Assembly: GCF_003628535.1 (NCBI RefSeq)
Contig: NZ_RBCI01000004.1
Coordinates: 248,001-312,000, forward strand
Direction of reading: 5' to 3'
From: Flavisolibacter nicotianae
Lineage (GTDB): Bacteria; Bacteroidota; Bacteroidia; Chitinophagales; Chitinophagaceae
Length of the DNA: 64,000 nt
The position numbers and the translations under genes are program-made. Numbering within the stretch: the first letter of the stretch is position 1; each line of letters opens with the position of its first letter. Below the pieces are notes generated by a model that was not told the origin of the DNA, ran no database searches, and worked only from the letters and a program-made list of their open reading frames with translations. Below, piece by piece: positions 1,120 through 22,580 of the stretch.

Positions 1120-1505
1120 AGATGGCTCCTGGATCGAAAACCTGCAGCTAAAAAGCTGTATCGAAAACGGACAGTTTTGTGCGAATACGAACAGGGTCGT
1201 AAGCGAACAGGATAAGTAAGTATTTGCTTCCCAGTTTCTTGTGGAAGTGGTACAATTGTTCGGTTTCAAAACGGGTGTTTGCATAGACAGCAATATCGAT
1301 TGTGTCGCTGATCGCTGCAAAGCAACACGCATCAAACCGAAACATTTTTCATGCTGTTCAACTTCGTAAATACGGCCTCGTGTCAAAAGGTAAAAGCGCA
1401 CCATCATGCCGTTGTTGTTATGTTGAAAATTTCAAAGCCGTGCTTACATGGAAAAAATGCTGGAAACAGCAGGCAGAGGAAAAATGAAAACATAAAACCG
1501 TGTTT
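1120..1505 (+). other. 386-nt intergenic gap between permeases 1 and 2
   Basis: I see no convincing gene here. Short antisense ORFs of 65 and 100 codons exist but show no recognisable family. The gap contains a 19-bp dyad at 1156-1174 and, just after it, a looser related stretch (1178-1194) ending in ACGAACAG. A TGGTACAATTGTTC string at 1248-1261 faintly resembles the -24 part of the elements described before the last permease and the ATPase, but it is too diverged to call a promoter. Confidence 0.5.
1156..1174 (+). promoter_or_regulatory. 19-bp dyad operator, third copy (C)
   Basis: The sequence CTGTATCGAAAACGGACAG matches the dyads at 14104-14122 and 16690-16708. The outer arms here are CTGT/ACAG, while in the other two copies they are GTGT/ACAC: the first and last bases have changed together and keep the symmetry. 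This supports recognition of the dyad by a dimeric protein. It lies about 330 nt upstream of the next permease start, farther than in the other copies, so its target is less clear. Confidence 0.5.
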
Positions 1506-3944
1506 ATGTTGAAAAACTTTTTTACGGTCGCCTGGAGAAATCTGGCGAAGCACAAGATTTTCTCCTTCATCAATATCATCGGCCTTGCCTCCGGCCTGGC
1601 CTGCTTTATTTTGATCGCCATGTACGTGGCGGATGAACTCAGCTACGACCGCTTCAACGAAAAGGCCGACCGCATCTACCGGGTCAATTCCGACGTGTTG
1701 TTTGGTGGCAACAACCTGCGGCTTGCCGTCTGCTCCGATCCGATGGGTGCCACCTTGAAGAAAGACTATCCGCAGGTGGAAGAATTTGTCCGGTTTTACA
1801 ACTCCGACGGTTACCGGATGGTAAAGAAAGGAAATGAATACCTGCGGGAAAACAATGTTGCCCGTGCCGACTCAACGCTGTTCAATGTGTTTACCCTTCC
1901 GGCTATCGCCGGCAATACAAAGACCGCCTTGAATGAACCCAACACGGTTGTGCTGACAGAGTCAACGGCGAAGAAATACTTTGGAACAACAGACGTGGTG
2001 GGAAAGCAAATTGAAACCGACGAAAACCGAAGCACTATTTACAAGGTCACGGCCGTGATCAAAGACATTCCGCACAATTCGCATTTTCAGTTTGATTTTA
2101 TTTTTCCCATGAAGGGCATCGACTACCAAATGGGAAATTTCCTCAGCCATAATTTTCAAACCTACATTCTCTTAAGACCCGGTACCGATTACAGGGCATT
2201 TGAAAAGAATTTCAACCAGGTAATTGACCGGTACGTAATACCGCAGGCCAAGGAGTTCATGAACATTGGTTCGATGGATGAATTTCGCAAGGCGGGCAAC
2301 AATCTTTCGTACAGCCTGATGCCGCTGACCAAAATCCATCTTTACTCCGACCGCTTTCCGGAACTGGGTGTTAATGGTAACATCCAGTACGTGTACATTT
2401 TTTCGGCCGTGGCCATTTTCGTTCTGTTGCTGGCCTGCATCAATTTCATGAACCTGTCAACGGCCCGTTCCGCCGGGAGGGCAAGGGAGGTCGGCATCCG
2501 GAAGGTACTGGGTTCCGAAAAGCGATCGCTCATCCAGCAGTTCCTGCTCGAGTCCATCGTCACTTCGTTTTTGGCCACGGCACTGGCCATCGGCATTGCC
2601 GCCGTTTGTTTGCCCTGGTTTAACGAACTGTCAGGCAAGCAGCTTTCGCTGGCCGATTTTTTCCAATCGAAACAAGTTGTTTTCCTTGTGCTATTGCCGC
2701 TCATCGTTGGCCTGCTGGCCGGTGCTTACCCGGCCTTCCTGTTGTCGTCGTTCAGGCCCATCGCCGTGCTGAAAGGCCGCCTCAATGCGGGTTTCCGGCG
2801 CAGCAACCTTCGTGGTGCCCTGGTGGTTTTCCAGTTCACCACGTCCATCATCCTGATCATCGGCACCATCGTGGTGTACCGCCAGTTGAATTATGTACAA
2901 ACCAAGCAGCTTGGCTTCAACAAAGACCAGGTGCTGATCGTGAACGGAACCGGCGCCCTGCGGGAACAGGCCACGGCCTTTAAGCAGGAAGTGGCAAAGC
3001 TGAGCGGCGTTTCCGGCGCTGCGTTTGCCGGCTACCTGCCGGTGGAGGGTTCGGCACGCAACGACAATACGTTTTCAACGGAAGCCGTGATGACGGCAAA
3101 GAACGGCTTCAACATGCAGGCCTGGCAGGTCGACTACGACTACCTGAACCTGATGGGCATGCAACTGGTGAAAGGACGAAATTTTTCCCGTGATTTCGGC
3201 GCCGATTCTTCCGCCGTGATCATCAATGAAACGACGGCCAAACTGATTGGCTTCGACAATCCCATTGGCAAAAAGCTTTACAGCAATTTCCAGGATATCA
3301 CCGGCAACCGGCTGATCGCTTACGACATCATCGGCGTGGTGAAGGACTTTCATTTTGAATCGCTACGGCAAAATATCGGGCCTCTTTGCATGCGGCTGGG
3401 CAACCCCTCGTGGGTGACAGCCTTCAAGGTGCAGACGGGCAATCTGAAATCCCTCCTGGGCACCATCGAAAAAAAATGGAAAGCCATGGCGCCGGGCATG
3501 CCGTTCAGCTACCAGTTCCTCGATGACGCCTTCAACAGCATGTACAAGGTGGAGCAGCGCACCGGGAAACTGGGCTTAAGCCTTGCGGTGATCGCCATCC
3601 TCATCGCCTGTCTTGGCCTTCTTGGCCTTGCGATGTTTACGGCCGAACAGCGAATCAAAGAGATCGGTATCCGCAAGGTCCTGGGAGCAACGGTAACGAA
3701 CCTGGTTTCCATGCTCTCGAAAGACTTTTTAAAACTGGTCCTTCTCGCTCCGGTGATTGCCTTCCCGGTTTCGTGGTGGATCATGAACAAGTGGCTGCAG
3801 GACTTTGCCTACCGCACGGCCATCGGCTGGTGGATCTTTGCCCTGGCGGCGATCATGGCCGTGGTGATCGCCCTGCTTACGGTTGGCTCGCAGGCCATTA
3901 GGGCAGCGCTGGCCAACCCGGTGAAGAACTTGAGAACAGAGTAG
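1506..3944 (+). CDS. ABC transporter permease, MacB/FtsX family (array member 2)
   Basis: Inner-membrane permease of about 812 aa, built as two fused MacB-like units. Each unit has one N-terminal helix, a periplasmic MacB core domain and three FtsX helices. Here the first helix is at about 20-41, the first FtsX block at about 296-425 with EVGIRKVLGSE, the second-unit helix at about 437-460, and the last FtsX block at about 685-805 with EIGIRKVLGAT. It ends NPVKNLRTE. MacB-type permeases do not form a through-membrane channel; they transmit ATP-driven conformational change to the periplasm. The ATG at 1506 is preferred over the in-frame GTG at 1500 because MLKNFFTVAWRNLAKHK matches the paralog N-termini. 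The substrate is unknown. Confidence 0.93.
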   Translation: MLKNFFTVAWRNLAKHKIFSFINIIGLASGLACFILIAMYVADELSYDRFNEKADRIYRVNSDVLFGGNNLRLAVCSDPMGATLKKDYPQVEEFVRFYNSDGYRMVKKGNEYLRENNVARADSTLFNVFTLPAIAGNTKTALNEPNTVVLTESTAKKYFGTTDVVGKQIETDENRSTIYKVTAVIKDIPHNSHFQFDFIFPMKGIDYQMGNFLSHNFQTYILLRPGTDYRAFEKNFNQVIDRYVIPQAKEFMNIGSMDEFRKAGNNLSYSLMPLTKIHLYSDRFPELGVNGNIQYVYIFSAVAIFVLLLACINFMNLSTARSAGRAREVGIRKVLGSEKRSLIQQFLLESIVTSFLATALAIGIAAVCLPWFNELSGKQLSLADFFQSKQVVFLVLLPLIVGLLAGAYPAFLLSSFRPIAVLKGRLNAGFRRSNLRGALVVFQFTTSIILIIGTIVVYRQLNYVQTKQLGFNKDQVLIVNGTGALREQATAFKQEVAKLSGVSGAAFAGYLPVEGSARNDNTFSTEAVMTAKNGFNMQAWQVDYDYLNLMGMQLVKGRNFSRDFGADSSAVIINETTAKLIGFDNPIGKKLYSNFQDITGNRLIAYDIIGVVKDFHFESLRQNIGPLCMRLGNPSWVTAFKVQTGNLKSLLGTIEKKWKAMAPGMPFSYQFLDDAFNSMYKVEQRTGKLGLSLAVIAILIACLGLLGLAMFTAEQRIKEIGIRKVLGATVTNLVSMLSKDFLKLVLLAPVIAFPVSWWIMNKWLQDFAYRTAIGWWIFALAAIMAVVIALLTVGSQAIRAALANPVKNLRTE

Positions 3945-3956
3945 GAGAAAGAGCGG

Positions 3957-4012
3957 GATATTGGATATTGGATATTGAGATATTTGGTATAGCTAAAAAC
4001 TGATTGCTGATC
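3957..4012. repeat. Short intergenic repeats (GATATTGG units plus CTGATTGCTGAT)
   Basis: Between permeases 2 and 3 there are three near-perfect tandem units of GGATATT, followed by an ACTGATTGCTGATC string. The same pair of elements, in the same order, recurs at 31808-31914. The GATATTGG part alone recurs inverted at 41065-41108, and the CTGATTGC part alone at 24096-24111 and 31221-31232. These look like a small dispersed family confined to intergenic DNA. I cannot tell what they do. Confidence 0.55.
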
Positions 4013-4039
4013 ACTTTTATAATTCGTAAATAAAAAACT

Positions 4040-6397: not shown

Positions 6398-6505
6398 AAC
6401 ATGGTTACAAACCCGATGAAACGATAAGGTAATAACAAACCTTGAGCGAGCCAGGCAAGATCACATGAGGATACATTCAATTTATCCATTTTCAAAATTC
6501 CGGTT

Positions 6506-8862
6506 ATGGTAAAGAATTATCTTCTGGTGGCTTTACGAAACATGCAACGAAACAAAGCCTTTACGGCCATCAACGTGTTGGGGCTTGCGCTGGGCATCGC
6601 TTGCAGTTTGCTCATTTTCCTTTGGGTGAATGATGAATACAGCATCGATAGGTTTCATCAAAACAGTCCGCAGTTGTACAGCATTTTTGAACGGCAGTAC
6701 CACGACGGAACGGTCTTCGCCAACCACAACACGCCGGGGCACAGGAACTGAAAAAGGTGTACCCGGAGGTGAAATTTGCCGCTGGCTATGCCTGGAACAA
6801 AGAGGCGACGTTCGAGGCGAACAACAAGATCATCAAAGAAGGAGGAAACTACGGCGGTGAGGATTTCTTTCGCATGTTCAGTTTCCCCTTGTTGAAAGGC
6901 AGGGCGGAAACAGCCTTGGAGGAACCGCTTGCCATCGCCTTATCGAAAAAGATGGCGGAGGATTTCTTTGGCTCGGCAGAAAAAGCCTACGGCCAAACCA
7001 TCCGTTTTCAAAACAAAAAAGATTTTAAAGTGACGGCTGTTTTTGACAATGTGCCGTCCAGCAGCTCGCTAAAATTTGACTATCTCCTCAACTGGGAAGA
7101 ATTTTTGAACGAAAATGAGTGGGCAAAAGACTGGGGCAACAATGCGCCGGAAACCTATCTCGTACTCCGGGAAGGAACGGATGCGAAAGCCTTTGCCAAA
7201 AAGATCACCGCCTTCATTGAAAACTATTTCAAGGAACCCAATTTTAAGGTCCGTCTCGATTTGCAACCGTTTGGCGACGTGTACCTGCATTCAACTTTCA
7301 AAGACGGCGAACTTTCCGGCGGACGAATTCAGTATGTACGGTTATTTAGTGTCATCGCCATTTTCATTTTGCTGATCGCCTGCATCAACTTCATGAATCT
7401 TACTACTGCACGATCAGTGAGGCGGGCCAAGGAAATTGGTGTACGAAAAGTGGTCGGCGCTTTCCGCATCGCCCTGATCCGGCAGTTTATTGGTGAAGCA
7501 CTGTTTTTTGTTTTCCTGGCGGCGATCGTGTCATTGGTTCTTGTGGCCCTGGTCATGCCGCTGTTCAATGAACTAACCCATAAGCAACTGACGGTTCCTT
7601 TTGCAGATCCGCGCTTTCTCCTGGGCTTTGCCGGCCTGATCCTCCTTACAGGGGTTGTTTCGGGTAGTTATCCCGCTTTGTACCTCTCGTCATTCAATTC
7701 AATCAGCGTTTTAAAAGGAACGATCAGGTTCAGTACCGGTGCGTTGTGGTTTCGAAAAGGACTGGTGGTTTTCCAGTTCGTTTTGTCGATTGTTCTCATT
7801 ATTGGTACCATCGTGGTGAGCCGGCAAATCGATTATGTTCAGCGGATCAATCTTGGTTACGACCGTGAAAATCTACTCTATGTGCCGCTGGAAGGCGACC
7901 TGCTGAAAAACTATGCGCTTTTTAAAAACAAGGCGATGGCCCTGCTGGGCATACAGCAGGTATCACGCATTACCGATAATCCGACCAACATCAGCAACGC
8001 TACGGGTGGTGTGCAGTGGGAGGGTAAAGATCCGACCTCCATGGTGCAGTTTGCACAAGCCGCAGTGGGTTATGATTTCACCGGAACATTGAAAATACCA
8101 CTGGTGCAGGGCAGGGATTTTTCAAAGGATTTTCCGACCGATTCGGCTGGTTACATCATCAACGAAACAGCCTTGAAACTGATCGGGTACAAAGATCCGG
8201 TTGGTAAAAAGCTGGTCTTCTGGCAGATGCCCGGAATGATCATTGGCGTCATCAAGGACTGTCATTTCAGTTCCTTGCACGATCCCATCCGTCCGATTGT
8301 CCTTCGTCTTGGCGAAACCGCCGATTATGGACGTGTGCTGGTCCGCACAGAACGCGGCAAGACAAGAGAGGCCCTGGCCAGCCTTGAACGCATCAGTAAG
8401 GAACTGAACCCGAAATTTCCTTTCACCTATTCTTTTTCGGACGATGACTATCAAAAGCTATATACCAGCGAGAAACTGGTGGGCAAACTTTCCAACGCGT
8501 TTGCCTTCCTGGCCATTTTTATTTCCTGTCTTGGACTGTTGGGTTTGGCCATGTTCACGGCCGAGCAACGTACCAGGGAGTTTGGCATCAGAAAGGTCCT
8601 GGGTGCGAGTGCCCGGTCGTTGTTTCAACTGCTGTCGAAGGAATTCATCGTACTGGTTCTGCTGGCGCTGTTGATTGCCTCGCCACTTGCCTGGTATTTT
8701 ATGAACAGCTGGTTGCTTGATTATGCGTACCGGGTGAATCTTTCCTGGTGGATGTTTGCGCTGGCGGGTTCGGCAGCAATGATGATTGCGCTGCTGACCG
8801 TAAGTCTCCAGGCCATCAAGGCAGCCTTTGTAAACCCGGTAAAAAGTTTACGGACGGAATAA
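6506..8862 (+). pseudogene. ABC transporter permease, MacB/FtsX family (array member 4), broken by a one-base frameshift
   Basis: The first frame runs from ATG 6506 and stops at 6749-6751 just after NHNTPG. The continuing frame picks up at once with AQELKKVYPEVKFA and runs to 8862. Adding one G to the GGGG run at 6736-6739 restores a single frame of about 785 aa, the length of array member 3, with normal FtsX motifs (EIGVRKVVGAF, EFGIRKVLGAS) and the tail NPVKSLRTE. Everything outside the break looks intact, so this is either a recent inactivating mutation or a homopolymer sequencing error. If real, the second part could only be made by reinitiation, for example at GTG 6757, and would lack the first membrane helix. 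Confidence 0.88.
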
Positions 8863-8958
8863 CGTTCATTTTAAAAGGGAAAAAAACGAATTGGTTGATC
8901 GGACAGTGGGGGTAAACAAGAAAGGTTGTAAACCGGCATCATTACCTAAATCTTTTCT

Positions 8959-11418
8959 ATGCTGAAAAATTATTTCAGGGTTGCTCTCCGGAGCCTTCTC
9001 AAACGCAAAGGCTATAGCCTCATCAACATCCTGGGCCTGGCAACCGGGATGGCCGTTTGTTTGCTGATCGTGCTGTTCGTGAAAAGTGAGCTCGGCTACG
9101 ACCGGCACAACGAGAAAGGCGATTCCATTTACCGCGTGGTATTTGACCGTATTTACCCGGGACGGTCAACTTCGTATTCGATGATCCCGCAGTCCATCGG
9201 CCCGGCTATCCAGAAAGAGTTTCCCGAGGTGCAGGAAGTGACCCGGGTGTTCAACTTTACGGGCGGCATCGGTAATTTTTTCATGCGTGTGGGCGACAAG
9301 ACGTTTGAAGAAAAAAAGGTCCTGGCGGTTGACTCCAACTTCTTCCGAGTATTTACCGGTACGTTCCTCGTTGGCAACCCGGCAACGGCCCTGCAGCAGC
9401 AGAATGCCGTGGTGCTAAGCGAAAGCGCTGCCAAAAAGATTTACGGCTCCGCAGATGCCGCGATGGGCAAGCAGTTTCAAACAGACGGCGACGGCAACAA
9501 CACGTTCCTGGTTACCGGCGTTTGTAAAGACTGGCCCGGGAATTCACATTTTACGTTTGACCTGTTGCTCTCCGTGAGTGGCTTTCCCTTTATCCGGCAA
9601 CCGAATCACACCGGCTTCGCGGCCCATACCTACCTGCTGCTCTCGCCCCATGCGAATCCAAAAGCACTGGAATCCAAGCTGCCTCTCGTTGTTGAAAAAT
9701 ACGTATCGGGAGCCATCGAGCAGGCCTTCAACCAGAGTTACCAGGACTTTAAAAAAGCCGGTAACGGCTATCATTACTACCTGCAGCCGCTGCAAAAAAT
9801 TCACCTCATCTCTGACCTCGAGGCCGAGCTGAGTCCCAACGGCAGCCTGGCGTCGGTGTATATTTTTGGTGTGATCGCAGTGTTCATTCTCTTTCTTGCC
9901 TGTATCAATTTTATCAATCTTTCGACGGCACGATCCGTTGAACGGGCCAAAGAAGTGGGCATTCGAAAGACATTCGGTTCGGAGAAAAATGCGCTGATCA
10001 TCCAGTTCCTGGTCGAGTCGGTGGTATTGGCCCTGTTTGCCTTGTTGCTGGCGATTGGCCTGATGTTTATTTTGCTGCCGCTTTTCAACCAGGTATCCGG
10101 GAAGAATTTAACGCATAGTTACCTTGTGCAGCCGTTGTTCCTGCTCGTGCTGGTTGTTTTTGCCATTTTGGTAGGCGTGGTGGCCGGCCTGTATCCTGCC
10201 TTTGTCCTGTCATCGTTTCAGCCCATTGAAGTCCTGAAAGGACGATTCAAATCAAACAAAAAAGGCCTTGTGTTACGCAACGGGCTGGTGGTTTTCCAGT
10301 TTGCCATTTCGGTAATCCTGATCATCGCCGCCATTGTAGTGAACCAGCAAATGCGGTACATGCTGGGCGACCGATTAGGCTTTCGCAAAGACCACATCAT
10401 CATTATCGAACGTGCCGACCTTTTGGACAGGCGAACGGAATCGTTCAAGACAGAGCTGCTGAAAATCCCCGGCGTGGAGATGATAACCGGCACGTCGGCG
10501 ATGCCGGGAACGCAAAACTTTTTCGGCACCAGCTGGCAGAAAGAAAATGCCAAGGAAACACTGACGGGGCGGGGGCTTGTCGTTGACGAAAATTTTGCGA
10601 AAACGCTGGGACTTGCCTTGAAAGAAGGCCGGTTTTTCTCCAAAGAATTCGGCACCGATTCGCTTTCGGTGGTGCTGAACGAAAAGGCTGTTCAGGAACT
10701 GGGCCTCGGCGCCAATCCTGTTGGCGCACGACTAACCACCCCCGATGGGTTTTTCAACGCACCTGACGGCAAGCCTTATGTGTATACCGTGGCCGGGGTT
10801 TTAAATGATTTTCATTTCCAGTCGCTGCACCAAAAAATTTCACCGCTGGTGATCACCAATTCGGCAAGAGGCAATGGGGCAAACAACCTCATGGCCGTGC
10901 GGGTGAAAGCGGACAACTTTAAAGCCGCCGTTGAAGACATTGAAAACAAGTGGCGTGAGTTTGTCAAGGACCGTCCCTTTCACTACAACTTTTTTGACCA
11001 GACACTGGCCGATCAGTACCTGGCCGAGCAAACCACGCAAAAGATCTTTACCGTGTTTTCGTCGCTGGCCATCTTCATTGCCTGTATCGGGCTTCTTGGC
11101 CTGGTAGCCTACACCACGCAGCAACGTACACGGGAGATCAGTATCCGGAAGGTATTGGGAGCAACGGCGTCCAATATCGTGAACATGCTTTCAAAGGATT
11201 TTCTCAAGCTGGTGCTGGTTACGTCCCTGATCGGTTTACCGGTGGCCTGGCTGGGGATGCACAAGTGGCTGCAGGATTTCGCGTACAGGGTAAACATCAG
11301 CTGGTGGGTATTTGTGATGGCGGCCGTTGTGGCCGTGGTGATCGCTCTGCTCACGATCAGTTTTCAGTCGCTGAAAGCTGCTTTCTCGAACCCGGTAAAA
11401 AACCTCCGCTCGGAGTAA
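8959..11418 (+). CDS. ABC transporter permease, MacB/FtsX family (array member 5)
   Basis: 819 aa, the longest member of the array. The N-terminus is MLKNYFRVALRSLLKRKG, the first FtsX block carries EVGIRKTFGSE and the last carries EISIRKVLGAT; the tail is NPVKNLRSE. It starts 96 nt after the frameshifted member 4. Intact reading frame, same strand and even spacing suggest it is expressed with the rest of the array, but no promoter box of the kinds found elsewhere in the window is visible in the gap. Confidence 0.93.
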   Translation: MLKNYFRVALRSLLKRKGYSLINILGLATGMAVCLLIVLFVKSELGYDRHNEKGDSIYRVVFDRIYPGRSTSYSMIPQSIGPAIQKEFPEVQEVTRVFNFTGGIGNFFMRVGDKTFEEKKVLAVDSNFFRVFTGTFLVGNPATALQQQNAVVLSESAAKKIYGSADAAMGKQFQTDGDGNNTFLVTGVCKDWPGNSHFTFDLLLSVSGFPFIRQPNHTGFAAHTYLLLSPHANPKALESKLPLVVEKYVSGAIEQAFNQSYQDFKKAGNGYHYYLQPLQKIHLISDLEAELSPNGSLASVYIFGVIAVFILFLACINFINLSTARSVERAKEVGIRKTFGSEKNALIIQFLVESVVLALFALLLAIGLMFILLPLFNQVSGKNLTHSYLVQPLFLLVLVVFAILVGVVAGLYPAFVLSSFQPIEVLKGRFKSNKKGLVLRNGLVVFQFAISVILIIAAIVVNQQMRYMLGDRLGFRKDHIIIIERADLLDRRTESFKTELLKIPGVEMITGTSAMPGTQNFFGTSWQKENAKETLTGRGLVVDENFAKTLGLALKEGRFFSKEFGTDSLSVVLNEKAVQELGLGANPVGARLTTPDGFFNAPDGKPYVYTVAGVLNDFHFQSLHQKISPLVITNSARGNGANNLMAVRVKADNFKAAVEDIENKWREFVKDRPFHYNFFDQTLADQYLAEQTTQKIFTVFSSLAIFIACIGLLGLVAYTTQQRTREISIRKVLGATASNIVNMLSKDFLKLVLVTSLIGLPVAWLGMHKWLQDFAYRVNISWWVFVMAAVVAVVIALLTISFQSLKAAFSNPVKNLRSE

Positions 11419-11572
11419 GGCAATCCGAACGACAAGTTCAGCCGTGTATGATGAGTGATGAGCAGAAAAGTCTCTGTTCGCCATTAGCCATCGACCATTC
11501 ACTATACACGTGTTACCTGTTGTAAGAAATCGTCGTCTAATCAAACTTCATTGCTGACCATAAATTAAAACG
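11419..11572. repeat. Intergenic spacer with CCATTCAC repeat
   Basis: This 154-nt spacer carries CCATTAGCCATCGACCATTC, related to strings at 14060-14072 (ATTCACCATTCACC) and 16603-16658 (a GAATGGTCG/CGACCATTC hairpin plus CATTCACC). These three gaps between array genes thus share a degenerate repeat. No gene is apparent here. Confidence 0.4.
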
Positions 11573-14014
11573 ATGTTCTTCCACAATTTAAAAATCGCGT
11601 TTCGCAACCTTGCCAAGCAAAAGGTGCTGTCCTTTATCAATATCAGCGGCCTGTCGATCGGGCTGGGTTGCTTTGTGCTCTTCCTGCTTTTTGCCGTGCA
11701 TGAATTTACCTACGACCGCTTTCACCAAAATGCCGCGAATATCTATCGGGTTGCCGAATGGATACAGACACCCGAACGGCAGGGCGGCGATGCCTTTGGC
11801 GGTACGCCGCTTGGCCCCGCCATTAAAGCAGATTTCAGCGATGTGAAAGCGTATGCCCGGATCCAGGCAGGGTTTGACGACAAGTTTGTCCGGGTGAACA
11901 ACGACGTGACCCGCAGCAAGATTTCCTTTGCCGATCCGCAACTGTTCAAAATGTTCAGTTTTAAAACGATCGCCGGCGATGCATTTACTGCGCTGAACGA
12001 TAAACAAACGGTGGTGCTGACAAAAGAAAAGGCCATCCAGCTTTTTGGCAGAACGGATGTTGTTGGCAGCCGCGTCGACATCAAAATGGGAGAGCAGTAC
12101 GAGCCCTTTGTGGTGGGTGCCGTCACGGAAGATATTCCGTCCAATTCTTCGATCCGCTATAGCATTTTGGGCAGTTATGCCTACCTGATGGCTTCGGACA
12201 TGGGCCGTCAAAGCGATGGTAACTGGCACATGACCATTGGCAGCGAAACCTACCTGCTGCTCGATTCAAAGTCAAACCTGGCGCAGGATGCGGGACGGCT
12301 GGCGCAGTTCCGGCGCAGTCACATGCCCGGCGAGGAAGAGGAACTAAAAAAGATGGGCGTTTGGGACGGCAAAGGTCCTTTTCCCGTCCGCTTTCTCCTG
12401 CAGCCGTTGAAAGACGTTCATACCAACCCGGCCATTGGCGGTCCTTCCGACACCATCGACCCTAAGATCATCTGGATCCTGATCGCCATCGCATCGGCCA
12501 TTCTTATCATTGCCTGTATCAATTTCACCACCATTGCCATTGGCCGCTCCTCTGCCCGGGCCAAGGAAGTGGGCATTAAAAAAGTGACGGGCAGCAGGCG
12601 GGGGCAACTCATTGGACAGTTTTTGACCGAATCCATTTTACTGAGTGTTTTTGCCGTGATCCTCGGCTGCGTACTGGCGATGCTGTTGCTGCCTTTCTTC
12701 AATCAGCTCGCAGGTCGCGAACTGCATTTTTCCTTTTCGCAGTTTCCGCAGCTATTGTGGCTGTTGCTGGCGCTGACCTTGCTGACCGGTTTGTTCGCCG
12801 GCATCTACCCGGCCTTTGTGTTGTCGTCCTTCCGACCCATTGAGGCCATCAAGAACAAGATCCGGTTGGGCGGGTCCAACCTTTTTACCAAATCGTTGGT
12901 GTCTTTCCAGTTTGTCCTGTCGATTGTCCTGATCATTTCAACGCTGGTGCTGCTGCAGCAACTGAAGTTTTTGCGGACGCAGAACATCGGGTTTCAAAAA
13001 GAAAATGTGTTGGTGGTGGATGCCGACGGCACCGATGCAAAAAAGATCTACCCGCTGTTCAGGCAGATGGTGCTTTCGAATACGGCCTTCGCCGGTATCT
13101 CCGCTTCGGAAATGGGCATGGGCGAAGGGAAAGGCCTGATGGGCACCGGGTTTCAGTACGAAGGCGAAACAAAAGGCGTGATCATGTACCCCGTTGATGC
13201 GGGCTTCCTGAAGACGATGAAGATGCAACTGCTCGCAGGTCGCGATTTTAACCCGGAACTGACGACGGATACAGTAGACGCCATTATTGCCAACGAAGCC
13301 CTGCTGAAGGATTTTGGCCTGACACTTTCCACGGCTGTCGGCGCTGAATTGAAGGAGCGGCGCTTTGGCGACCAGTTGATTTCCCGCCGGATCATTGGCG
13401 TGGTGCGGAATTTCAACTATGCCAGCCTGAAACAGGAAGTGCGGCCACAAATGTTTTTCCAGCCGCCGCAATTGCAGCCCACGAAATTTTACATCCGACT
13501 GCGTAGCGGCGATCCTTCCACTGCGCTGGCCTTTCTGCAGGCGGCGTGGAAAAAACTCGCTCCTGAATTCCCGCTTCGTTATAGTTTCCTGGACGAAGAC
13601 ATGAACCGGTTTTATGTTTTCGAAGAACGGTGGAGCCGGGTGGCCGGCTGGGCCGGTGGCATTTGCATTTTCCTTGCCTGCCTAGGCTTGTTTGGACTGG
13701 CGGCGCTCACGGCTGTCAATCGTACGAAAGAGATCGGCATCCGCAAAGTGTTGGGTGCTTCCGTTTCTTCGATCGTGACGCTTCTTTCAAAAGATTTTCT
13801 AAAGCTGGTGCTGATCGCGTTTGTCATTGCATCACCGCTTGCCTGGCTGCTGATGCACAAATTTTTGCAGGAGTATGCCTACCGCATTTCCATCGGCTGG
13901 TGGGTATTCATCCTGACCGGCGTGGTGGCCCTTCTTGTTGCTTTTGTAACGATTGGCTCACAGGCCCTGAAATCGGCGGTGGCTAACCCCGCGAAGAATT
14001 TACGAACGGAATAG
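11573..14014 (+). CDS. ABC transporter permease, MacB/FtsX family (array member 6)
   Basis: 813 aa, two MacB/FtsX units. The N-terminus is MFFHNLKIAFRNLAKQK. The first FtsX coupling segment is diverged (EVGIKKVTGSR instead of GIRKVLG-type), while the second is canonical (EIGIRKVLGAS). The tail is NPAKNLRTE. The first periplasmic domain differs from its neighbours by a long insertion around residues 215-270. Divergence in the first coupling helix could mean altered contact with an ATPase subunit, though that is inference. Confidence 0.93.
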   Translation: MFFHNLKIAFRNLAKQKVLSFINISGLSIGLGCFVLFLLFAVHEFTYDRFHQNAANIYRVAEWIQTPERQGGDAFGGTPLGPAIKADFSDVKAYARIQAGFDDKFVRVNNDVTRSKISFADPQLFKMFSFKTIAGDAFTALNDKQTVVLTKEKAIQLFGRTDVVGSRVDIKMGEQYEPFVVGAVTEDIPSNSSIRYSILGSYAYLMASDMGRQSDGNWHMTIGSETYLLLDSKSNLAQDAGRLAQFRRSHMPGEEEELKKMGVWDGKGPFPVRFLLQPLKDVHTNPAIGGPSDTIDPKIIWILIAIASAILIIACINFTTIAIGRSSARAKEVGIKKVTGSRRGQLIGQFLTESILLSVFAVILGCVLAMLLLPFFNQLAGRELHFSFSQFPQLLWLLLALTLLTGLFAGIYPAFVLSSFRPIEAIKNKIRLGGSNLFTKSLVSFQFVLSIVLIISTLVLLQQLKFLRTQNIGFQKENVLVVDADGTDAKKIYPLFRQMVLSNTAFAGISASEMGMGEGKGLMGTGFQYEGETKGVIMYPVDAGFLKTMKMQLLAGRDFNPELTTDTVDAIIANEALLKDFGLTLSTAVGAELKERRFGDQLISRRIIGVVRNFNYASLKQEVRPQMFFQPPQLQPTKFYIRLRSGDPSTALAFLQAAWKKLAPEFPLRYSFLDEDMNRFYVFEERWSRVAGWAGGICIFLACLGLFGLAALTAVNRTKEIGIRKVLGASVSSIVTLLSKDFLKLVLIAFVIASPLAWLLMHKFLQEYAYRISIGWWVFILTGVVALLVAFVTIGSQALKSAVANPAKNLRTE

Positions 14015-14090
14015 AATGGTCAACGGAAAACTCGTTTTCTATAATTTGTCTTCGTTATTCACCATTCACCACTACATACCGCCAGCCCGA

Positions 14091-14188
14091 ATTCGTACAT
14101 CGGGTGTATCAAAAACGAACACTATCGTACATTGTATACTATCTATTTTACTGATTTTCAACTTGTATAAATTTGGTACGCAATTCAT
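14091..14188 (+). promoter_or_regulatory. Duplicated control region, copy A: 19-bp dyad plus sigma-54-like promoter
   Basis: This aligns without gaps to 16677-16774; by hand count about 75 of 100 positions agree, concentrated in three blocks. Block 1 is ATTCGTACAT followed by the dyad GTGTATCAAAAACGAACAC (14104-14122). Block 2 is CTGATTTTCA (14151-14160). Block 3 is TTGGTACGCAATTCA (14173-14187), ending 13 nt before the ATG at 14201. Block 3 resembles the sigma-54 -24/-12 pattern (TGGCACG-N4-TTGC) in its -24 half, but the -12 half lacks the usual GC. An overlapping TAAATTTG box (14168-14175) fits the housekeeping consensus but is not conserved in copy B. Confidence 0.6.
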
Positions 14189-14200
14189 TATTCAATAAAC

Positions 14201-16585
14201 ATGCTGCGTAACTATTTCAAGATTGCCCTCCGTCATTTGCAAAAAAACAAACTGTATGCGCTGGTCAACATCTTTGGTTTGTCCATCGGTATTGCCAGCT
14301 GCCTGCTGATTGGCCTTTACATCTGGCACGAGCTAAGCTTCGACCGTTTTCACAAAAATGCCGACCGCATTGCACGGGTGACCTGGCAGTACAATTTTGG
14401 TGATGCCGAAAATAAAACTGCAACCACCGGCACGAGGGTGGGCCCCGATTTTCAGCGGCACTTTCCAGAGGTAGAGGCCTATGTCCGGTTGCTGAAATAC
14501 CCGAGAGTGGTGCGGTACGAGAACGCGATGTTTGATGAAAAAGCCTTTCTCTATGCGGATTCGGCTTTCTTTTCCCTGTTCTCTTTCCCGCTGCTGAAGG
14601 GCGATCCGAAAACTGTGCTGGCAGGGCCCGACAAAGTGGTGATCACGGCGTCTGCCGCAAAAAAATATTTCGGCAATGAAGACCCCGTGGGTAAAACCGT
14701 GAACGTGGGTGGCACAAAGGATTTCGTGGTTACCGGCGTGGCGAAAGACGCACCGGCGGCTTCGCAGATCCGGTTTGATTTTGTGGGAACCTTTTCGTCG
14801 CTGGGTGCAGCAAAAGAAGAAAAGTGGAACGAAGCAAACTACGTGACCTACCTTTTGTTGCAGGATGAAAAAAGCGTCCCGGTTTTGCAGAATAAGATTG
14901 ATGCCTACATCCGCAACATCGCGAAAAACGAGATGCAACTGACCGGGCCGCAGTACATGGCCTACCACCTGGAGCCGCTGACCCGTGTGCACCTGCATTC
15001 GGAACTGGACGGCTTTGAGCCAAACAACAATATCCTTTACATCTACATCATGGCCGCTGTCGCCGTATTAATTCTTCTCATCGCCTGTGTCAATTACACC
15101 AACCTGAGTACGGCACAATCGGCCAGGCGCAGTGCGGAGATCAGTATGCGAAAGGTAATGGGGGCGGGCAGGGGGCAGGTATTCAGGCAATTCATCATTG
15201 AATCATTTTTACTGACTTTGCTGGCTGTTGTGCTGGCCCTGTTGCTATCGGCGTTGTTTCTGCCTGCCTTCAACCGCCTTGCCGGGAAGGAGTTTGATAC
15301 CGACATATTGTTTGGGCCTGTAACACTGATTGTTTTACTGCTGGCTGCCGTTGTCATTGCCTTTGCGGCTGGTGCTTACCCGGCACTGGTTCTTTCCGGT
15401 TCCAGGCTGATCTCCACCCTAAAAGGTGGTTTTGCGTTCACCGGTTCGGCCACGTTGCGCAAATCGCTGATCGTTTTTCAATTTGTCATCTCCATCTTTC
15501 TCATCATTGCCACCATTATTATCCTGCAACAACTTTCGTTTATCCGGAACAAAGACCTTGGCTACAACAAAGAGCAGGTAGTGGTACTCCCGGTGGACAG
15601 GACAATCTCGGAGCATTACGACGAACTCAAAAAAGCACTGGCCACCAGCCTTGGCGTGGTTTCTGTTGGTGGCGCTTATGAAGCACCCACGCACATCGAC
15701 TGGAGTGACGGCATCACCACCAAAGACGGGAAAAAGATCACCGTTAATGCCCTGCCCGTGGACGAGGACTTTACCAGGACGCTTGGCCTGAAGATCATTG
15801 CCGGTGAGGATTACAGCCAGACGGATGTGCTGCAGTTTGACACATCCAACGGCGGAAACAATCTTCGATATTCGTTCATGGTAAACGAATCGGCGCTGAA
15901 GCAACTGGGATGGACACCGGAAGAAGCTATCGGCAAAACCATCACCAAGGGGAATGATGGCGTGATCAAAGCCGTGGTGAAAGATTTTCATTTCCGCTCG
16001 ATGCACGAGCCGATCAACCCGCTGCTGATTTTTTACGACAAGCGGATAGCGAGTTCCCTCTTTGTCAAGCTCTCGGGCAGCAACGTTTCAGCTACCCTTC
16101 AAAACCTGGAGAAGACGTGGAAAGAACGGATCAGCCATCGTCCGTTTGAATACCACTTCCTGGATGAGGAGTATGCCGAGTTGTACAAGGCCGAACAACG
16201 CACGGCTGGTGTGTTTACCGGTTTTTCTTCGCTGGCCATCCTGCTGGCCTGTCTGGGCTTGTTTGCCCTGACGGCTTTCACCATGGTGCAGCGCACCAAG
16301 GAAATCGGCATCCGCAAGGTGCTGGGAGCAACGCTGGCAGATATTTTGGCCCTGGTGGCAAAAGATTTTTTGCTCCTCGTGATCCTTGCCTTGCTGATTG
16401 CGGCACCGCTTGCGTTTTTCACCGCCAGCAAATGGCTGGATAGCTTTAGCTACAAAGTGGACCTGCACTGGTGGGTGTTTGCCGGCGCCGGTGTGGTGAC
16501 GATCCTCATTGCTTTTTTTACCATCAGCCTGCAGGCCATCAAAACCGCGCTGGCCAACCCGGTAAAGAATCTACGGACACAATAG
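14201..16585 (+). CDS. ABC transporter permease, MacB/FtsX family (array member 7)
   Basis: 794 aa with N-terminus MLRNYFKIALRHLQKNK. The first FtsX segment is EISMRKVMGAG and the second EIGIRKVLGAT; the tail is NPVKNLRTQ, the only member ending in Q. It has its own upstream control region (14091-14188) that is shared with the ATPase gene 3' of it, so these two are likely co-regulated and may form the core transporter, with other permeases as alternative partners. That pairing is inference from the shared upstream DNA. Confidence 0.93.
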   Translation: MLRNYFKIALRHLQKNKLYALVNIFGLSIGIASCLLIGLYIWHELSFDRFHKNADRIARVTWQYNFGDAENKTATTGTRVGPDFQRHFPEVEAYVRLLKYPRVVRYENAMFDEKAFLYADSAFFSLFSFPLLKGDPKTVLAGPDKVVITASAAKKYFGNEDPVGKTVNVGGTKDFVVTGVAKDAPAASQIRFDFVGTFSSLGAAKEEKWNEANYVTYLLLQDEKSVPVLQNKIDAYIRNIAKNEMQLTGPQYMAYHLEPLTRVHLHSELDGFEPNNNILYIYIMAAVAVLILLIACVNYTNLSTAQSARRSAEISMRKVMGAGRGQVFRQFIIESFLLTLLAVVLALLLSALFLPAFNRLAGKEFDTDILFGPVTLIVLLLAAVVIAFAAGAYPALVLSGSRLISTLKGGFAFTGSATLRKSLIVFQFVISIFLIIATIIILQQLSFIRNKDLGYNKEQVVVLPVDRTISEHYDELKKALATSLGVVSVGGAYEAPTHIDWSDGITTKDGKKITVNALPVDEDFTRTLGLKIIAGEDYSQTDVLQFDTSNGGNNLRYSFMVNESALKQLGWTPEEAIGKTITKGNDGVIKAVVKDFHFRSMHEPINPLLIFYDKRIASSLFVKLSGSNVSATLQNLEKTWKERISHRPFEYHFLDEEYAELYKAEQRTAGVFTGFSSLAILLACLGLFALTAFTMVQRTKEIGIRKVLGATLADILALVAKDFLLLVILALLIAAPLAFFTASKWLDSFSYKVDLHWWVFAGAGVVTILIAFFTISLQAIKTALANPVKNLRTQ

Positions 16586-16602
16586 TCTTGTCAAAAGGTA
16601 GT

Positions 16603-16660
16603 GGTGAATGGTCGATTGGGAAACTCGCTATTCACCGCCGACCATTCGTCATTCACCCTC
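16603..16660. repeat. Hairpin repeat GAATGGTCG / CGACCATTC
   Basis: Inverted repeat with 9-bp perfect arms at 16606-16614 and 16639-16647, lying between permease 7 and the dyad of copy B. It belongs to the CCATTCAC-type intergenic repeats also seen at about 11490 and 14060. It has no T-run, so it is unlikely to be a simple intrinsic terminator. Confidence 0.45.
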
Positions 16661-16676
16661 CACCTGGCTATCCCAA

Positions 16677-16774
16677 ATTCGTACATTTGGTGTATCGAAA
16701 ACGAACACTGTCGTATAAAGTTACTTATCTAATTACCTGATTTTCAGAAGGAAAAAAATTGGTACGCATTTCAC
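16677..16774 (+). promoter_or_regulatory. Duplicated control region, copy B, before the ABC ATPase
   Basis: Second copy of the region at 14091-14188, with identical spacing: 82 nt from ATTCGTACAT to TTGGTACG in both. The dyad is GTGTATCGAAAACGAACAC (16690-16708); the promoter-like element is TTGGTACGCATTTCA (16759-16773), 27 nt before the ATPase ATG at 16801. The TAnnTTTG box seen in copy A is absent here while TTGGTACGCA is kept, which argues that TTGGTACGCA is the functional element. Confidence 0.6.
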
Positions 16775-16800
16775 ATAACAATCAATACCAGACTGAAATT

Positions 16801-17486
<686 letters not shown>

Positions 17487-17490
<4 letters not shown>

Positions 17491-18815
17491 AACGCATTGC
17501 ATTTTTAGGAAGCCTGTTCCTGCTCTTGCAGGCAAGCGGACTTGCACAGCCACACTACACCTTGCAGCAATGCATCGACACTGCATTGGCCAAAAATATC
17601 GGTGTACAGCAAAGCGGGCTTTTGGCCGAAGCCGCCGATGTGAACATGAAACAAGCGAGGGCCAATCTTTTGCCTGACCTGAACGCGACCCTGGATCACG
17701 GGATCAATACCGGTAGAAGCATCGATCCGTTTACCAACGGCTATGTCAACCAGTCGATCAACTACGCCAGCTATGGCGCCAGTTCCGGCGTGGTATTGTT
17801 TAACGGCTTGAACCTGCACAACCAGGTCAGGCAATACACACTTGCCTACGACGCTTCCCGCATGGAATTGCAGCAGGCAAAAGATAATCTGACGCTCAAC
17901 GTGATCCTGGCTTACCTGCAGGTGTTGAATAACGAAGACCTTCTATCGTCTTCGCTTGCGCAAAAAACCGTTAGTGACAAACAACTCGAACGACTAACCA
18001 TTTTAGACAAGCAAGGCGCCATCAGTCCCTCGCAGGTCACGGATGTCAAGGGACAATTGATGAATGATGAACTGTCAATCCTGAACATGCGCAACAACCT
18101 GGAGACCGCCAAGCTTTCACTGGCGCAGCTGATGAATGTACCCTACGATAAAGGCATGACCCTGGAACGCATGAATGCCGACGAGTTTTTGACAGCGTAC
18201 AGTGTGAGCAGTTCCGACATTTACCAAACGGCCCTGCAACAATTTTCGCTGGTGAAGTCAGTGGAGCTACGCACAAAAAGTTCCGAATACGCCCTGAAAG
18301 CCGCCCGGAGCCGCCTGTTTCCTACCGTTACGCTGGGCGGAAGCATGCAAACCAACTACTCCAGCGTCGCGCAGAATTCGACCGGCAAAATTCCTTATAA
18401 CGACCAGATCAGGAACAACGTGTTTTACAGTCTGAACCTGGGTGTGCGAATCCCGATCTTCAACTCGATGCGGTCACGGAATAACATCCGCTTGGCCGAC
18501 ATTGCGGTGCGCAACAACGAGCTGACGGAGGAAAACACCAAGCTGCAATTGCGCCAGCAGATCGAACAGGCCCACCTGAATATGACCAATGCCTACGATC
18601 GCTACAAAACCCTGTTAAGCCAGGTAGAGGCGTACCAGACTTCCTTTAAGGCTGCCGAGGCCCGCTTTACTGCCGGTGTGGGCACATCTGTCGATTATGT
18701 CATTGCAAAAAATAACCTGGACAGGGCCAACATCAACCTGATCGCAGCCAAATACGATTTCGTGCTGCGGAAAAAGATTCTGGATTATTACCAGAATGCG
18801 AAACTGGTACGATAA
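17487..18815 (+). CDS. TolC-family outer membrane efflux protein
   Basis: 442 aa, signal peptide about residues 1-21 (ending SGLAQ), then two repeats of the outer-membrane efflux (OEP) helical hairpin typical of TolC. It would form the trimeric outer-membrane and periplasmic exit duct for the ABC pump. The start overlaps the ATPase stop by four bases, so the two are translationally coupled. A periplasmic adaptor (MacA/HlyD type), normally needed to join permease and TolC, is not encoded next to it; it may lie upstream of the window. Confidence 0.92.
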
Positions 18816-18864
18816 GCGACTCCCCCGGAATGTTTTGAATAACTGCGTGTCACGGAAGGAAAAC

Positions 18865-19692
18865 CTATTTCTTTCCATGCACTTTGTTGAGCGTATAGCT
18901 GAAGTCTTCATCGCCGACCAGGAGCCTGCCCTGAGCATCGGTAAACAAAAGAATGTTTTCATCAGGCTGCAGCATGGAAAGAAACAGCTTGCCGTTTTCA
19001 TCGTTCAACCGGTAAACGGTGTTTCCGTTTGTTGTTCCCATTTGTTGCCAGGTACCTGTTTTGCTGCCTTGCTGCCGCCAGGCTGTGCCCAATACCTTGT
19101 AGCGGCCAGACAGCCTTGATTTGCCGCCGGCATACAGCGTTAACTTCCATTTCAACTTATAACAGGTTGTATAGTTTCTTGCGAGCCCCGGAATACCGCA
19201 GGGCGTACGTCCAACAAAGACCACAGAATCTGTAAATGCAAATGGTGACGCTGGTTGGCCGGTATACGGATGACCGGAAGGGTCGGTACGATTGAGTGTG
19301 TAGCTCCAGCCGCCGTTTCCCACGAGCAAGGTTTTGTCGGTATCGAGCAGGTGAAGCAAGTCGCCGTTCAGATCAACAAGCGTGAGTGCGTTGGAACCAT
19401 TTGTTAGTTCATACCGGGCTCCTTTTTTTGTACAGGTCCCGGCGAGGTCGATTTTTGCGCCACCGTTGATAAAGCCATTGGTATTGGGCTGGCCAATACC
19501 GTAGCGGCACGAAAGACGGTAGCGGCTATCTTCGAGTACCAGCTTCCAGCGGATAAAGTCGATTGAATCAGCCATGGAGATTCCCAGGAAAGAACGAACC
19601 AGCGGGGCTGCCGGCGTGCTGCCGGTGAACCTCCGTTCTTTTTCACTAACCGGGCAAACCGCCAACAGAATGGCCAGTAGGAGCGAAGTCAT
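18865..19692 (-). CDS. Secreted protein with two tandem copies of a lipocalin-like domain
   Basis: 275 aa with a short hydrophobic N-terminus (TSLLLAILLAV) that suggests export. Two segments align with each other: one begins WKLVLEDSRYRL (about residue 49) and closes LLVGNGGWSYTLNR, the other begins WKLTLYAGGKSRLSGRY (about 185) and closes LLVGDEDFSYTLNK. Each repeat thus ends L-L-V-G-[ND]-x-x-[FW]-S-Y-T-L-N. The shape recalls NlpE-like or lipocalin-like small barrels, but I do not recognise a named family. It is convergent with the tolC-like gene, 49 nt away, so it is not part of the efflux operon. Confidence 0.7.
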   Translation of the reverse strand: MTSLLLAILLAVCPVSEKERRFTGSTPAAPLVRSFLGISMADSIDFIRWKLVLEDSRYRLSCRYGIGQPNTNGFINGGAKIDLAGTCTKKGARYELTNGSNALTLVDLNGDLLHLLDTDKTLLVGNGGWSYTLNRTDPSGHPYTGQPASPFAFTDSVVFVGRTPCGIPGLARNYTTCYKLKWKLTLYAGGKSRLSGRYKVLGTAWRQQGSKTGTWQQMGTTNGNTVYRLNDENGKLFLSMLQPDENILLFTDAQGRLLVGDEDFSYTLNKVHGKK

Positions 19693-20817: not shown

Positions 20818-22407
20818 TCAGAGCTGGATTGTTCGGTCGATATGTACTTCCTCCAAAAAGCGTTCGTCGTGCGAAACAACAAGCAGTGTTCCCCGGTACT
20901 CGTTGATGGCCGCTGTTAGTATCTCAATATTTTGAATGTCCAGGTTGTTCGTTGGCTCGTCTAAGATAATGAGGTCGGGTGATTGTTGGTAAACCGTCAG
21001 GCAGCAAAGAAGCAGACGCATTCTTTCGCCGCCACTCAGCGCCGAGCAGGGTTTATCCCAGTCATCTTTCGTAAACAAAAAACGACTGAGCCGGTTTTTC
21101 ACTTCGTGTTCCTGCAACGCAGATGCGTTGAATTTCTGAACCTGTTCATACATCTTCAGACGCTTGTCGATGAGTGAATAATCCTGGTCGACGTAAACGG
21201 ATTGACTGTCCGCCCTGTATATCGTCCCAATGTGGTTTTCCAAATTTCCCAGAATCAGTTTGACCAGGGTCGTTTTACCAGAACCGTTTGCACCTTTCAG
21301 GACAATGCGTTCACCGCTTGTAATTTGGAAATTCAGGCTGTCCGGCCAAAGCGGCTGCGTGCCATACCGGAAATTGAGGTTCGTTGCCGTAACCAGGATT
21401 TTGCCCCTGTGAAGGGCGGAATCATCGAAACCAAATTTCATTTTCGCAATATCGGGTAAGGCAGCACGCAGCTCCTGCAAATCCTGCGAGATACCGTCAA
21501 TTTTTTCGGCATGAACGGTTTTCATTTTTGCCGTGCTGTTTTCCGCATTGTTGCGCAGGGTGTTCATCATAATCCGGGCAACGCCGGCCTTTTCCTGTTT
21601 GCTTTTTCCCCGGCTGTCCAGTTTTTGTTGCCGTTCGATTGTTTGCCTTTCCTTTTCCCTGGCTTTCCGCAACGTTTTTTCCTTGCTTTGAATGTTCTGG
21701 TTCAATGCAAGATTCTCTGCTTGTTTTTGTTGGAGGTAAAATTCATAATTGCCACCGTAAACAGCAATTCCATGCTTACTCAACTCGCAAACTTTTCCAA
21801 AAAGATTGACAAGTTTCCGGTCGTGGCTAACAACAATTAACGTGCTCGGGGTGGATTGAAGAAGATCGTACAAAACCTGCCGGCTCAGATAATCCAAATG
21901 GTTGCTCGGCTCGTCTAATAAAATCAATTCAGGCTGGTGAATCGAAATACCCGCAAGAAACAGTTTTGTTTTTTGCCCGCCGCTCAGCGTTCCCATTTTT
22001 TGCTGTAAATCCAGATCCGTAAGTTGCCAATTGCGCAAGGCCTGATGGCAGCGCTCTTCGATTGTCCAGTCATCGTCGAGCAGCGCATAATTTTCTTCCG
22101 TTGCATTCCCGTTTTCGATCTCCCGAAGCGCAGTGAGTTTGCGCTCTACCTGCAATGCCTGTCCAACTGTGAGGTCATTGTATTGCCCGAAATGTTGCGG
22201 TACATCATACGGTTGCGCCAGAACAGTCATGTTTCCAGCCGACGGTTGACACTGGCCCGCAATGATTTTCAGTAAAGTTGACTTACCCGCGCCGTTGTTG
22301 CCGATCAGGGCTATTTTGTCGTGTTTGTTTACTGTCAAATCAATGCTGTCAAAAAGTAAATCTTTGTTAGGATGTGTGTAGGAGATGTTTTGTAAACGAA
22401 GCATCAT
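20818..22407 (-). CDS. ABC-F family ATPase (ribosome-associated)
   Basis: 529 aa with two ATPase domains on one chain and no membrane domain. First domain: Walker A GNNGAGKST, signature LSGGQKTKLFLAG, Walker B LILLDEPSNHLD. Second domain: Walker A GANGSGKTT, signature LSGGERMRLLL, Walker B LIILDEPTNNLD. A long charged linker (about 240-290, rich in K, R, E and Q) joins them. ABC-F proteins bind the ribosomal E site and act as translation factors or antibiotic-protection factors; which applies here cannot be decided from sequence. Two adjacent ATGs (22407 and 22404) are possible starts. Confidence 0.92.
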   Translation of the reverse strand: MMLRLQNISYTHPNKDLLFDSIDLTVNKHDKIALIGNNGAGKSTLLKIIAGQCQPSAGNMTVLAQPYDVPQHFGQYNDLTVGQALQVERKLTALREIENGNATEENYALLDDDWTIEERCHQALRNWQLTDLDLQQKMGTLSGGQKTKLFLAGISIHQPELILLDEPSNHLDYLSRQVLYDLLQSTPSTLIVVSHDRKLVNLFGKVCELSKHGIAVYGGNYEFYLQQKQAENLALNQNIQSKEKTLRKAREKERQTIERQQKLDSRGKSKQEKAGVARIMMNTLRNNAENSTAKMKTVHAEKIDGISQDLQELRAALPDIAKMKFGFDDSALHRGKILVTATNLNFRYGTQPLWPDSLNFQITSGERIVLKGANGSGKTTLVKLILGNLENHIGTIYRADSQSVYVDQDYSLIDKRLKMYEQVQKFNASALQEHEVKNRLSRFLFTKDDWDKPCSALSGGERMRLLLCCLTVYQQSPDLIILDEPTNNLDIQNIEILTAAINEYRGTLLVVSHDERFLEEVHIDRTIQL

Positions 22408-22580
22408 TTCTTTCTTTAAAGTGTAACGAAACTGGCCACTGGAATACAGTCGGCCACTTTTACCTGCGGAAAGAAATTATTTTTTACATGTTCGTCTTTG
22501 GAATTAAAGCTCGCGAAACTACAAAATATTTTCTTCGTTCATATAGTCGCCACAGTTAAAAATCCACTGGTTTTGAAGAA

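Follow-up and report, generated by a model that had tools for sequence, protein, structure and literature searches.

A candidate sigma-54-like enhancer module, linked to an NtrC-type response regulator, before MacB-type permease genes of Flavisolibacter nicotianae

Activators of sigma-54 promoters bind upstream sites, loop with the help of IHF and open the sigma-54 polymerase, as described in PMC7057263 and PMC4641369. The closest known arrangements are the enhancer regulons of NtrC/AtoC type, with which the module reported here shares an activator of REC-AAA-Fis architecture, tandem dyads, an IHF-like site and a -24 element TGGCAY. It differs from them in the -12 half, which lies one base closer and mostly reads TT(G/T), and in its targets, which are MacB-type export genes.

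In Bacteroidota, sigma-54 promoters of the -24/-12 type are described for Flavobacterium psychrophilum SM4, one operon by mutagenesis (PMC9723704). The targets selected for the table of that paper are chaperones, gliding and exported proteins; no FtsX permease is among them, which sets it apart from the present case. A survey of 2025 reports that sigma-54 promoters are enriched before FtsX-like permeases (COG0577), Bacteroidia included, and its authors call this the first evidence of its kind (PMC12316311). Its predictions have FtsX-like permeases, Bacteroidia and sigma-54 in common with our module. However, its passages on these permeases mention neither an activator nor an enhancer sequence, and neither a tandem layout nor a module in common, and the consensus given there is a general one, TGGCAC-N5-7-TTGCT, so the canonical -12 half starts at +11. 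A further parallel is T6SS2 of Vibrio fluvialis. PMC5963220 quotes the IHF consensus YAANNNNTTGATW, which in that system precedes the -24 element by a set distance of 16 bp (about 18 here); the activator and the genes are different, and binding of IHF was shown in that system, whereas here there is a sequence match alone. Among open-licence papers, we recognised no literature on this activator, its enhancer or the shortened spacing beyond PMC12316311.

Gene cluster and its control blocks

The window (the whole stretch of 64,000 nucleotides that was analysed, from a genome of 6.09 Mb) covers part of a cluster that, from a divergent point upstream, runs HlyD, ATPase, 12 FtsX/MacB permeases, second ATPase and TolC-type protein. 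Pfam confirmed 11 of the 12 permeases and the fourth was judged by eye. All parts of a MacAB-TolC-type system are present: MacB-type permease, HlyD-type adaptor, ABC ATPase and outer membrane efflux protein. In MacB of E. coli the situation differs, as the ATPases of this cluster are separate proteins. The FtsX array in window 1-16585 is very large (12 in one cluster) and goes with just one HlyD gene and one gene of TolC type.

The initial annotation had noted that the window holds no activator gene and had advised a search for a Fis-family sigma-54 activator near this locus. The likely activator does lie outside the window, 16.2 kb upstream, where the 12-permease cluster begins. It is a response regulator (RR) of NtrC type (contig C24, 230439-231794), composed of a receiver (REC, PF00072), a sigma-54 AAA domain (Sigma54_activat, PF00158) and a Fis-type HTH (HTH_8, PF02954), and it lies beside a HATPase histidine kinase. 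Both genes are on the minus strand, 16-19 kb before the window; the RR gene is divergent from HlyD, and a 13th permease is found beyond the kinase, on its far side. The RR is 92% identical to that of Flavisolibacter longurius, a member of the same genus. At the position of the GAFTGA loop, the 80 RR orthologs carry GAFTDA (67), GAYTDA (10) or GSFTGA (3). The RR of F. nicotianae has GAFTDA, which PMC4641369 lists among the competent variants. The genome further encodes RpoN twice, with the three sigma-54 domains complete, and has two genes of the HU/IHF family.

Copy 1 of the control block precedes the last permease and copy 2 the second ATPase (Table 1). About 75 identical positions over about 100 nt had been counted by hand, and the recount agrees: 75 of 101 positions are identical without gaps between window 14091-14191 and the stretch 2586 nt downstream, while the best identity in 500 shuffles with 81 offsets averaged 35.6 and reached 46 at most. 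According to BLAST the repeat extends over about 132 nt (76.5% identical, E 7e-21). As a DNA query against the whole genome, copy 1 retrieves only itself and copy 2 (E 3e-18) at E of 0.001 or below. The description of the shared parts needs partial revision. The common block stands, including the CTGATTTTCA block, which corresponds to the IHF-like site, and the TTGGTACGCAWTTCA element; the "19-bp dyad", however, is not one operator, since its first part belongs to a degenerate distal dyad (right half) and its second part to a strong proximal dyad (left half). The box TAnnTTTG is confined to copy 1, as had been stated.

Scanning for more copies was fruitful. Among those found is a third, weaker one in the window itself (1157-1261), with TGGTAC at 1248-1253 and the geometry seen in orthologs. 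The three copies hold the three strongest dyads of the window. The next best (14.6 bits; 22422-22438, plus strand), just upstream of a minus-strand gene for a double-ABC ATPase (20818-22407), is probably due to chance. An RNA leader was considered as an explanation of the block and dropped, as no Rfam family reached its gathering score in window 1000-19000.

Table 1. Elements of the three control-block copies and genes next to them, with positions in the window
Feature	Position	Strand	Remark
Third copy: strong 17-bp dyad, distal position	1157..1173	+	24.3 bits; perfect dyad-N74-TGGYA match
Third copy: second dyad TGTGCGAATACGAACA, weak, 21 bp further along	1178..1193	+	read from sequence
Third copy: IHF-like element	1217..1229	+	8/9 vs YAANNNNTTGATW
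Third copy: -24/-12-like element TGGTACAATTGTTC	1248..1261	+	74 nt after dyad
FtsX/MacB permease downstream of third copy	1500..3944	+	Pfam
Copy 1: degenerate distal dyad, right half CGTACA kept	14083..14099	+	22 bp upstream of proximal dyad
Copy 1: proximal putative activator dyad TGTATCAAAAACGAACA	14105..14121	+	25.3 bits; perfect dyad-N52-TGGYA match
Copy 1: IHF-like element TATTTTACTGATT, overlaps CTGATTTTCA block	14144..14156	+	7/9
Copy 1: -24/-12-like element TGGTACGCAATTCA	14174..14187	+	52 nt after dyad
FtsX/MacB permease, 7th in window, 12th in cluster	14201..16585	+	Pfam
Copy 2: degenerate distal dyad	16669..16685	+	7.1 bits; 22 bp upstream of proximal dyad
Copy 2: proximal putative activator dyad TGTATCGAAAACGAACA	16691..16707	+	24.2 bits; perfect dyad-N52-TGGYA match
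Copy 2: IHF-like element TAATTACCTGATT	16730..16742	+	8/9
Copy 2: -24/-12-like element TGGTACGCATTTCA	16760..16773	+	52 nt after dyad
ABC ATPase, second of the cluster	16801..17490	+	Pfam on 16759-17490; start 16801 from orthologs
Outer membrane efflux protein, TolC type	17487..18815	+	Pfam OEP

Dyads, promoter element and IHF-like site in related loci

A matrix trained on the stretches upstream of the 80 RR orthologs and on the RR/HlyD region of F. nicotianae yielded the 17-bp dyad TGTATCAAAAGCGNACA. The three window copies were outside the training set; the counts that follow were made in the same 80 loci that served for training. In 56 of 80 loci, a dyad of at least 18 bits occurs in the 600 nt that precede the RR. 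Pairs within 450 nt upstream are found in 49, spaced by 22 bp (45 loci) or 21 bp (4). Somewhere in the whole locus (1.46 Mb scanned), a dyad above 17 bits is present in 60 of 80, and reversed sequences as well as 165 kb of other loci gave none. The remaining 20 activator loci show no dyad in the DNA available, which extends less than 700 nt upstream in only 3 of them.

The element TGGYA, which played no part in training of the matrix, follows the dyad at 50-56 or 72-78 nt in 58 of 80 loci. Single distances accumulate at 51-52 (40 cases) and 73-74 nt (50), with 4 at 53-56 and 8 at 75-78; a promoter with tandem dyads is counted twice here. Another 15 are single hits at other distances, 20-139 nt after the dyad. 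The usual order in orthologs is dyads, IHF-like site and TGGCAY, the last mostly 51-52 nt past the proximal dyad. The same distances recur in F. nicotianae, 52 nt in copies 1 and 2, 74 nt in the third copy as well as in the one at RR/HlyD, and the -24 half of the window copies reads TGGTAC.

We aligned 106 promoters on TGG, of which 89 were left below 65% identity; TGGYA is conserved in them by construction, the other positions are not. Of the 89, 85 have T at +11 and 63 have it at +10. TT begins at offset 10 in 60 and TTGC in 11, while TTGC at the canonical offset 11 (TGGCAC-N5) is limited to 2 promoters, so the canonical -12 half is not a property of this set, and the class we assign to the module is that of a variant, akin in its presumed working to a sigma-54 promoter. 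Here the -12 half sits nearer to the -24 element by one base than in the canonical form and reads TT(G/T) in most members, which is why its GC is usually missing, window copies included. The initial annotation had remarked on that lack, and it proves typical of the set, as GC occurs in 12 of 89 promoters in the conserved register and in 5 in the canonical one. Just upstream of the -24 element, at -8 to -2 of TGG, the 89 promoters have a weakly conserved TTAnnTT.

Counted genome-wide by spacer, TTGGCAC-N-TTGC occurs 24, 18, 5 and 21 times for N3 to N6 in 14 genomes, and a longer -24 half 28, 23, 25, 26 and 40 times for N4 to N8 in 58 genomes, with no clear peak in either series. Within the window, the canonical sigma-54 pattern with 2 mismatches has 5 hits where 14 are expected; the promoter half is therefore not significant unless its set distance from the dyads is taken into account. 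As an independent group of Bacteroidota sigma-54 promoters, 30 groES upstream loci were tried and set aside: TGG[CT]..TTGC was absent from them, but the minus-strand ones were read in the wrong direction, and several carry inverted repeats, which we take to be CIRCE.

Between dyads and promoter, the 89 promoters share a block at -31 to -14, approximately TAAN5TGRWWATCAA, which fits YAANNNNTTGATW. A match of at least 8/9 anywhere from -52 to -3, on either strand, is present in 58 of 89 (10.2 in mononucleotide shuffles), and one of at least 7/9 at the single register -31 in 42 of 89. The IHF-like elements of copies 1 and 2 are one base off this main register.

Distribution of sites, downstream genes and origin of copy 1

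In the genome of F. nicotianae, only the four sites of this cluster match dyad-N52/N74-TGGYA perfectly. Looser searches return 13 dyads with 1 mismatch (18 for the reversed pattern), 10 dyad-N52-TGGYA hits with up to 3 mismatches (9 reversed) and 9 dyad-N74-TGGYA hits with mismatches (3 reversed). Loose matching is therefore close to chance level, and only the perfect matches stand out. Judged by context, three of the looser sites look real: one before the 13th permease, with tandem dyads and CGGTA; one before a solo FtsX permease (contig C55), where TGGTACGATCTTGCA follows at 63 nt and so is further away by roughly one helical turn; and one before another FtsX permease (contig C5), with two dyads, an IHF-like stretch and TGGCAT. 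A loose match on contig C64 was taken as chance, as it falls inside an open frame of 213 codons and a downstream FtsX gene was not found.

Among 58 related genomes, the pattern dyad-N50-76-TGGYA occurs in 21 of the 24 that have the RR (a match at E 1e-100 or better) and in none of the 34 that lack it. Fisher's test gives p 6e-13, a value made too small by the relatedness of the genomes; if only the genus is considered, the pattern is found in 13 of 14 genomes with the RR and 0 of 4 without (p 0.002). The reversed pattern gave no hit across the 58 genomes. The pattern is missing from three activator-positive genomes (G015, G044 and G050), and in the latter two the sole RR match is a paralog of 42-43% identity.

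Targets were sorted by hand from 48 rows, which represent 46 distinct dyads, as two pairs share a dyad. Genes of this system lie downstream of 45 of the 46 sites: HlyD/RR in 18 cases (assigned from RR coordinates), ATPase in 11, FtsX permeases in 13 (by Pfam) and DUF4097 in 3. The ATPases were assigned by Pfam (that of F. nicotianae and four in relatives), by BLAST (3) or by N-terminal sequence only (3). The odd site out (G034, locus L267) precedes an ORF of 126 aa without assignment. In two relatives (L162:979-2010 and L265:1728-2759) a DUF4097 protein follows the mid-cluster module. The window copy at 1157, comparable to that module, precedes its permease with a leader of more than 200 nt, and this long leader may be a trace of a lost DUF4097 gene.

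Of the 8 relatives with an available ortholog of the second ATPase, 7 have a site before it. In 6 of 8 it lies within 230 nt upstream (weak in G005, 15.1 bits) and in G025 268 nt before the ATG; in G007 there is none within 230 nt. For the last permease, neither the ortholog in G006 (71%) nor that in G007 (67%) has a dyad within 300 nt. Taking both facts together, gain by duplication is likelier than repeated loss, as far as two orthologs can tell, and copy 1 looks like a lineage-specific duplicate of the ATPase control block. Such a fresh copy suggests a way in which a gene can be recruited, by copying of a control block.

Proposed mechanism and competing explanations

We propose that the NtrC-type RR, whose gene lies beside that of its histidine kinase at the cluster head, would upon phosphorylation bind a pair of 17-bp dyads spaced by about 22 bp. 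A protein of IHF/HU type would bend the DNA between dyads and promoter, and the AAA ring of the RR would open sigma-54 RNA polymerase waiting on TGGYAY-N4-TT(G/T). One activator would then switch on, as one unit, HlyD, ATPase and permeases, the TolC-type protein together with the second ATPase, and extra FtsX permeases elsewhere in the genome, and duplication of the ATPase control block would have brought a copy before the last permease of the window. We give this explanation as a whole, i.e. a sigma-54-like enhancer module of variant form run by the RR of the cluster head, including the duplication, a probability of about 0.9. The layout with an enhancer-binding activator had originally been suggested from two copies, and it gains support from the further copies, the nearby activator, the RpoN genes and the co-occurrence. 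DUF4097 targets and exporter genes point to a kinase that may sense envelope damage or an exported compound. A more far-reaching version remains tentative and, in our opinion, falls slightly short of even odds: sigma-54 polymerase itself would read the closer -24/-12 with TT(G/T), and one activator would run a portable enhancer-IHF-promoter cassette copied before FtsX permeases. If this is true, then export permeases enter a common stress response by gain of a cassette.

The dyads might be the operator of the RR and yet act on an ordinary sigma-A promoter (TAnnTTTG) instead of a sigma-54 one. In copy 1 this box overlaps the element, and the mostly missing GC of the -12 half fits as well; however, TAnnTTTG occurs at +5 to +45 of TGG in only 3 of 89 promoters (2.2 in shuffles) and overlaps TGG in 2 of 89. 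Since the dyad-spaced TGGCAY is a mark of sigma-54 and the RR has a sigma-54 domain, we find such a promoter improbable. Less probable again is another regulator of the dyads, for example a PadR- or TetR-type repressor, with the adjoining RR a coincidence. Only 1 of 7 sites in the F. nicotianae genome is directly adjoined by the RR, but the absence of the pattern from every sampled genome lacking the RR speaks against this, and the set dyad-to-TGGYA spacing suits an enhancer.

The weakest candidate in our view is a passive by-product of permease gene duplication or recombination, without a role in control. The permease ends upstream of both blocks are indeed alike too (86 nt at 74%, 127 nt at 69%), but a passive event would account neither for the site before the orthologous ATPase in most relatives nor for the module before solo permeases in other genomes. 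An RR-driven module of sigma-54-like form therefore remains our preferred reading. For MacB-type permeases of Bacteroidota it names concrete candidates for all three parts, activator, enhancer and promoter; it also makes the regulon testable by one RR deletion and poses a clear question on sigma-54 promoter spacing in these bacteria.

Some minor observations concern the same genes. The usual distance from the -24 element puts the start of the last permease message at about 14200, one base before the ATG, so this message would be nearly leaderless. In locus L027 (G000:C69, about 7862-10859), the second rpoN is directly followed by its own sigma-54 activator of response-regulator type. Several gaps of the FtsX array hold short repeated stretches, e.g. 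CATTCACCATTC.
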